Source: Akkermansia muciniphila (lineage in GTDB: Bacteria > Verrucomicrobiota > Verrucomicrobiia > Limisphaerales > UBA9464). From it: DNA of 64,000 nt. Position numbers and translations under genes: made by a program. Shown here in pieces: positions 1-790 of the stretch; position 1 is the stretch's first letter, and every line of letters begins with the position of its first letter. The notes under the pieces are model-generated. The model had not been told where the DNA came from and searched no databases. It saw only the letters and a program-made list of their open reading frames with translations. The stretch covers positions 1-64,000 of the forward strand of contig CAMDGV010000008.1 in the NCBI GenBank assembly GCA_945898055.1, read 5' to 3'.

Positions 1-444
1 GCATTTCAACCCTCGCTTCTGGCTCTCCATCTCTCATCGCGGTCGTAACCTCTCACCTTGTCTTCACGTTCGATCCTTCAGTCGCAAGACGACCTACTAT
101 GATCTCGGCTGACTTCTCCAGCGTCATCGTCACCGCCTTGCGGCGGCGCTAGCTTTATCGCAACGCCGGAGATCTCCCCGGGTAATGCGCACTTTCTTCC
201 ACACTTATGACCGTCGGATCTACGTCCGTGAGTTCCGGACAAGTTTCGGACTTTGAAGATTTTGGCCTTCTCATCCCTCACGTTCGCCTCGTATCCGCTT
301 CCTGTTCGTCGGTCCAGTGTTTTGCCTCCGGCTTCCTTCAGATCCCACCTCGCGATGGACACCCTTGCCGTGCAGCTAACAGTTCCCCTTGCCGGGCCTG
401 TACGGGACTTCAACCCATTAGAAAACGCGCCCTGCCAGGCGCAC
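1..444 (-). mobile_element. Group II intron, 5' portion (probably bacterial class C), cut by the window edge
   Basis: Read on the minus strand from 444 downward, the sequence begins GTGCGCC, matching the GUGYG 5' end of group II introns. It then shows blocks I recognise from domain I of bacterial group II introns, such as a GGGGAACTGTTAGCTG block, AAGGGTGTCC, GATCTGAAGGAAGCCGGAGG and GACGAACAGGAAGCGGATAC. The insertion point lies nine bases (TTTTCCTTG) after the stem of the HU terminator at 454-475 and in the same direction. This is the known target preference of class C introns. Only about 444 nt are inside the window, roughly domains I to III. The reverse-transcriptase/maturase ORF, catalytic domain V and the 3' end would lie to the left. 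Minus-strand ATGs at 37 and 30 might start that ORF, but too little is visible. Open frames here (e.g. 78-413 minus) are intron RNA, not proteins. Confidence 0.8.
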
Positions 445-448
445 CAAG

Positions 449-475
449 GAAAACGGCGCCCTAAAAAGGGCGCCG
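449..475 (-). terminator. Rho-independent terminator of the HU gene, used as intron target
   Basis: A perfect 9-bp stem (CGGCGCCCT / AGGGCGCCG, 454-475) with an AAAA loop (read on +) is followed on the minus strand by TTTTCC. It lies 22 bp beyond the stop codon of the HU gene. The group II intron begins a few bases further on. Confidence 0.85.
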
Positions 476-496: not shown

Positions 497-790
497 TTAA
501 GCCTTAATCCCAAGGATTGCATCCTTGGCGACCTTAGATATGCGGAACTTTACTACCTTCTTCTTCGGAATCTTAATCTCAGCACCTGTTGCCGGATTAC
601 GGCCGATGCGAGCCTTCCGTTCCACCAAAACCAGTTTACCGACACCCGGGAAGGTGAAGGTATTCTTTGCGTTCTTGTAGGATAACTCGGCAAGCATCTC
701 TAGAACGGCAACAGCCTGCTTCTTGGTGATTGCGGTCTGTTCCGCCAACGCGGCGGCTATTTGGGACTTGGTTAGAGCTTTAGAGGCCAT
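497..790 (-). CDS. HU/IHF-family DNA-binding protein
   Basis: This 97-residue basic protein is a histone-like HU family member, which binds and bends DNA as a dimer in the nucleoid. Residues 1-45 form the helical dimerisation part ([19 protein letters not shown]). Residues 46-85 form the beta-arm region, with the family signature around [15 protein letters not shown] at about 64-78. The length matches ordinary HU (90-100 residues). The gene is monocistronic: a strong hairpin terminator follows directly, and about 460 bp of gene-free DNA precedes it. HU and IHF subunits cannot be told apart safely from sequence alone, so no symbol is given. Confidence 0.93.

Follow-up and report, generated by a model that had tools for sequence, protein, structure and literature searches.

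The minus strand at the start of the window (the whole 64-kb stretch of DNA analyzed here) almost certainly carries the start (5′ end) of a class C group II intron, a retroelement present in several copies. The intron lies in sense orientation directly behind the intrinsic terminator of an HU gene, and would have arrived there by the mechanism set out below.

The intron 5′ part and its insertion site

The 5′ part of the intron runs from position 444 to position 1 of the window, so that intron nt 1-444 are visible. Read on the minus strand, the sequence from 444 onward is GTGCGCCTGGCAGGGCGC, which confirms the GTGCGCC start that had been predicted there. The features of the site are as follows.

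1..444, minus strand: intron 5′ part, 94% identical to the complete L047 intron and matched by Rfam models; cut off by the contig end
438..444, minus strand: intron 5′ end, GUGCGCC, read from the sequence; the lineage boundary is taken from the empty site of C105/C13 in G008
188..359, minus strand: domain I core, RF02001 (group-II-D1D4-3), 143.3 bits, E=4.8e-31, model positions 1-170 of 170
73..152, minus strand: next part of the intron core, RF01998 (group-II-D1D4-1), 58.5 bits, E=3e-9, full model
1..37, minus strand: start of the RT/maturase frame (MRDGEPEARVEM...), in frame with the intact L047 RT (MRDGEPEARAEMPKVD...)
261..264, minus strand: EBS1 CAAA, intron nt 181-184, from a fixed alignment register across relatives and EBS1/IBS1 covariation
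445..448, minus strand: IBS1 CTTG, the final four bases of the 5′ exon; three of four positions pair with EBS1
445..453, minus strand: T-rich tract of the HU terminator and gap between hairpin and intron, nine bases, TTTTCCTTG
454..475, minus strand: intrinsic terminator hairpin of HU with a perfect 8-bp stem, the landmark of the insertion, from the sequence and a hairpin-plus-T-tract test
497..790, minus strand: gene for an HU-family DNA-binding protein, host of the terminator; 97-aa ORF, named by sequence resemblance

In an Rfam covariance-model scan of all 64 kb, RF02001 and RF01998 both exceeded their gathering scores on this copy and were the only intron matches across the window. The domain I-like blocks that the original prediction placed within 1-444 are confirmed by these two scores. 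The terminator hairpin, CGGCGCCC-TAAAAA-GGGCGCCG, lies 21 bases downstream of the HU stop codon, and the predicted spacing of nine bases between a perfect hairpin and the intron start matches the sequence exactly.

The interval originally given for the element, 1-475, is correct as listed, but the intron extends beyond it, as base 1 of the window is also base 1 of contig C8 of its genome (G000; 136 contigs, 4.6 Mb). Because the contig starts at this base, the window copy lacks a readable RT, domain V and 3′ end, and these parts are documented on relatives instead. The RT frame begins with an ATG at 37-35 on the minus strand and is open from there to the contig edge, with its first 12 codons visible. 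The intron had been expected to be easy to miss because its frames resemble small ORFs; this is not the sole cause, since the RT frame sits at the very edge and its remainder is absent from the assembly.

Further copies in the same genome

Three further 5′ ends of the lineage are present in G000, on contigs C105, C28 and C7, each behind a terminator and starting with GTGCGCC or GTGCCCC right after the hairpin. C105 and C28 themselves end within the intron, after 156 and 145 nt of it respectively; the two are identical over 145 nt, and their sole difference from the window copy is at intron nt 8. The presence of copies at several contig ends suggests that the intron is a repeat that the assembler failed to pass, and that the inability to tell near-identical copies apart is why contig C8 ends inside it. 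The pieces of G000 were linked by homology.

The copy on C7 (C7:6187-7130, equivalent to L002:1451-2394) is 944 nt long and has kept both ends. It is a decayed remnant, in which the RT is reduced to N-terminal and C-terminal pieces with stops present. One terminator stands upstream of it, and an oppositely oriented terminator-like hairpin stands downstream.

Both intron ends located by an empty site

In the sister species G008, contig L230 contains the upstream flank of C105 (to base 1499) and the downstream flank of C13 (from base 1501) without interruption. The upstream flank consists of an ammonium-transporter-like gene and its terminator. In G000 the same flanks are parted by GTGCGCC... 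and ...CTCCTACCCGAT, the exon sequences on either side of the insertion being TTTTCTTTT and TGCGATTT. The L230 junction is an empty site. It identifies C105 and C13 as opposite ends of a single intron and places each end to within one base; the boundaries are thus seen on a sister copy. The 3′ end on C13 is matched by RF00029 (42.8 bits) and is 92% identical to L047.

At the HU gene of G008, other sequence follows the terminator and the intron is absent, so the HU insertion in the window is also polymorphic. The empty HU site carries TTTG in place of IBS1, which, in its inferred register, would pair with CAAA at all four positions. A search of G000 with the G008 sequence behind the HU terminator as query did not recover the 3′ flank of the HU insertion.

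Complete relatives and the reverse transcriptase

Relatives were sought among 145 related genomes. A complete copy (L047:965-2860, 1896 nt) is in G130, which belongs to another family of the same order; it is 94% identical to the window copy over all 444 nt, and the two differ by substitutions only. It starts GTGCGCCC, ends CCTACCCGAT, and is preceded by the hairpin TGCCGCAGG-CTTCA-CCTGCGGCA and then TTTCTCTTT. Its last 77 nt (L047:2784-2860) fold as domain V and domain VI (-49.9 kcal/mol, z -5.4), with a bulged A in domain VI seven nt from the 3′ end. A second complete intron, in G108 (L048, 1903 nt), shares 80% identity in its 5′-most 352 nt and is also located behind a terminator. L047, L048 and C13 share the 3′ end CCCGAT, so the AY ending is seen on relatives.

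The L047 RT (P0003) is intact at 472 aa and matches TIGR04416 above the cut-off (415.7 bits); the RT and domains V/VI are therefore documented in a close relative. Its Pfam domains are RVT_1 and GIIM only, and no endonuclease (HNH) domain was found by Pfam in the 472 aa. The best PDB match is the GsI-IIC RT (6ar1; residues 49-458, E=8e-148), followed by 7uim, 5hhj and 5hhl, with 6me0 and LtrA (1.4e-33) behind; 5hhj and 5hhl are class C maturases. From this ranking, the RT is predicted to belong to class C. Class C introns have no EBS2-IBS2 contact and recognize the 3′ exon through EBS3-IBS3; they splice mainly by hydrolysis without their own protein, and by branching with it.

Terminators and EBS1/IBS1 pairing at the insertion sites

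A public sample provided at least 80 loci with the core motif of the window-intron type, whose hosts, among the matches listed, include Bacillota, Bacteroidota, Lentisphaerae, Omnitrophus, Marinobacter and others. A GTGYGYC start was readable in 48 loci among the matches listed. With a hairpin defined by a stem score of 8 or more and an end 3-16 bases upstream of the intron, a hairpin preceded 46 of these 48 introns (96%), whereas among 625 control windows drawn from the same loci the figure was 5.8%; a hairpin with a T-rich tail was present in 87.5% of the 48, compared with 1% of controls. The window copy, C105, C28, C7, L047 and L048 all occupy post-terminator sites.

EBS1 was taken as four bases within the coordination loop and IBS1 as the last four exon bases. 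Among the matches listed, the two paired at 78 of 92 positions across 23 distinct sequence pairs, a somewhat favorable figure, given a register picked by eye and the omission of two loci (L114 and L160) that were misaligned in the EBS1 region; the margin is still large, as 10,000 shuffles gave a mean of 48.6 paired positions and a maximum of 64. EBS1 and IBS1 therefore co-vary between copies among the matches listed. The identity of the intron, its terminator sites and this covariation are direct observations, and the group II identity, the class C assignment and the post-terminator insertion of the original prediction all held, given the covariance models and the complete relative of 94% identity.

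Other reverse transcriptases and introns in the genome

Domain V matches on contigs C5, C18, C22 and C90 were considered as 3′ ends of this intron and rejected, because their RT C-terminus and domains V/VI differ from those of L047, which C13 matches at 92%. They represent a second group II lineage in G000, seen as four 3′ ends at contig ends, each with an RT C-terminus, domain V and ...CCCTACCCCTAY:

C5:1-412 (L009): second-lineage 3′ end
C18:1-412 (L012): second-lineage 3′ end
C90:1-143 (L010): second-lineage 3′ end
C22:59711-59893 (L011): second-lineage 3′ end

Many genomes of the window's genus carry almost identical 3′ ends; the 5′ end of this lineage was not found in G000.

Two other RTs were also rejected as that of the window intron. 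The one on C10 (L005, G000:C10:1-2910; RT frame 511-1596, IPIGSLISQMLGNFYL) adjoins a template-repeat-like stretch of the diversity-generating retroelement type at ~1592-1770, reading SGSNRVNRGGSWNNEARNCRSANRNRNEPGNRNNNLGFR. This locus resembles the part of such a retroelement that comprises its RT and template repeat, and a variable repeat was not found within the 2.9-kb piece. The one on C16 (L006, G000:C16:67205-67453) is an unrelated fragment with a weak RVT_1 score (27 bits, below the cut-off) and is unlike both intron lineages.

Alternative explanations

As the RT, domain V and 3′ end lie outside the contig, the window copy may itself be truncated, and a decayed, immobile fragment like the C7 remnant (944 nt with both ends, most of the RT lost, stops present) is the alternative of most weight. 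Nothing of the window copy is visible past intron nt 444, which counts in favor of such a fragment. Pairing at three of the four EBS1/IBS1 positions, rather than all four, and the failure to recover the 3′ flank of this insertion also count against the main reading. However, the intact G130 intron aligns to all 444 nt at 94% identity, every difference being a substitution; the RT frame stays open from its ATG up to the contig edge; and the break falls at the contig end, just where a repeat that assembly could not resolve would be expected to break. A decayed fragment is accordingly unlikely, and known biology would favor a window copy that continues intact past nt 444.

The remaining alternatives concern what the element is. 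That G000 also holds a second group II lineage (the 3′ ends on C5, C18, C22 and C90) gives some room for a class IIA or IIB intron whose place behind a terminator is a coincidence. This is highly improbable when all four G000 copies of the window lineage and 96% of the public relatives, among the matches listed, are at terminators, when the RT is closest to that of GsI-IIC and has no endonuclease domain, and when the element combines a GTGCGCC start with a 4-nt EBS1. The idea that the resemblance arose by chance, or that some other structured RNA or leader follows HU, might draw on a weak L2-leader match at 427-496 that overlaps the terminator, but that match is below the gathering score (E=0.32). 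The intron model score (E=4.8e-31) and the full-length homologues with RT and domain V already refute this reading, the probability of which is negligible.

Proposed mechanism and spread

The favored account of the class C intron is one of retromobility into terminators. The intron RNA and its RT/maturase would recognize the terminator stem-loop together with a short IBS1 (EBS1 CAAA against exon CTTG). The intron would then reverse-splice into the DNA of the terminator site and be copied by the RT, with priming from replication forks, which is proposed because an endonuclease domain is absent. Splicing, reverse splicing and replication-fork priming are assigned here from known biology. The position behind the terminator would leave the HU host gene hardly disturbed. 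According to a review (PMC4424553, citing Robart et al. 2007), class C (IIC) introns insert at intrinsic terminators, their proteins lack En, and they prime from replication forks. For a thermophilic IIC intron, recognition of the target through the terminator stem-loop plus IBS1 is described (PMC7161350).

Identity of the HU gene is only 75-78% for most comparisons of species within the genus of the window, whereas the intron is 94% identical across families. This comparison, made with one gene, points to horizontal movement of the intron. The window copy and L047 have 28 differences, two of which fall on both end positions of EBS1 (181 and 184): L047 has EBS1 AAAG and exon CTTT, compared with CAAA and CTTG in the window, with a matching difference between the two copies in the exon base opposite position 181. 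It is a tentative reading, plausible but short of probable, that a IIC lineage may have recently moved between bacterial families and re-aimed itself through EBS1.

Significance

The significance is mostly one of annotation: a mobile ribozyme that is invisible to ORF-based annotation terminates several contigs of G000. As the intron ends contigs and the assembly lacks its RT, counts of group II introns in draft genomes are likely too low. At public loci L119, L123, L155 and others, the contig ends 10 nt or less after the intron motif, so that class C introns seem to be a point of breakage in draft genomes from several phyla. With EBS1/IBS1 pairs readable in many copies, the way in which IIC introns choose among terminators can readily be tested.

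Comparison with known systems

A minimal IIC architecture, including an EBS1 at around intron nt 180, would be common to the O. iheyensis group IIC ribozyme and the intron here. The GsI-IIC intron of Geobacillus stearothermophilus, like P0003, combines an RT with a maturase domain and is without an endonuclease; in contrast, the complete relative here is ~1896 nt long and comes from another host order, and the window copy is cut off. Introns of the B.h.I1 type (Bacillus halodurans), as described in PMC4424553, likewise start after a terminator hairpin and T-tract, and share by that description a short EBS1 and a class C protein without En; they are set apart, again by description, by their host lineage and by the EBS1 sequence, CAAA in the window. 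All of the tested features fit class C, and nothing was found that departs from the class, whose habit of inserting behind terminators is well known.
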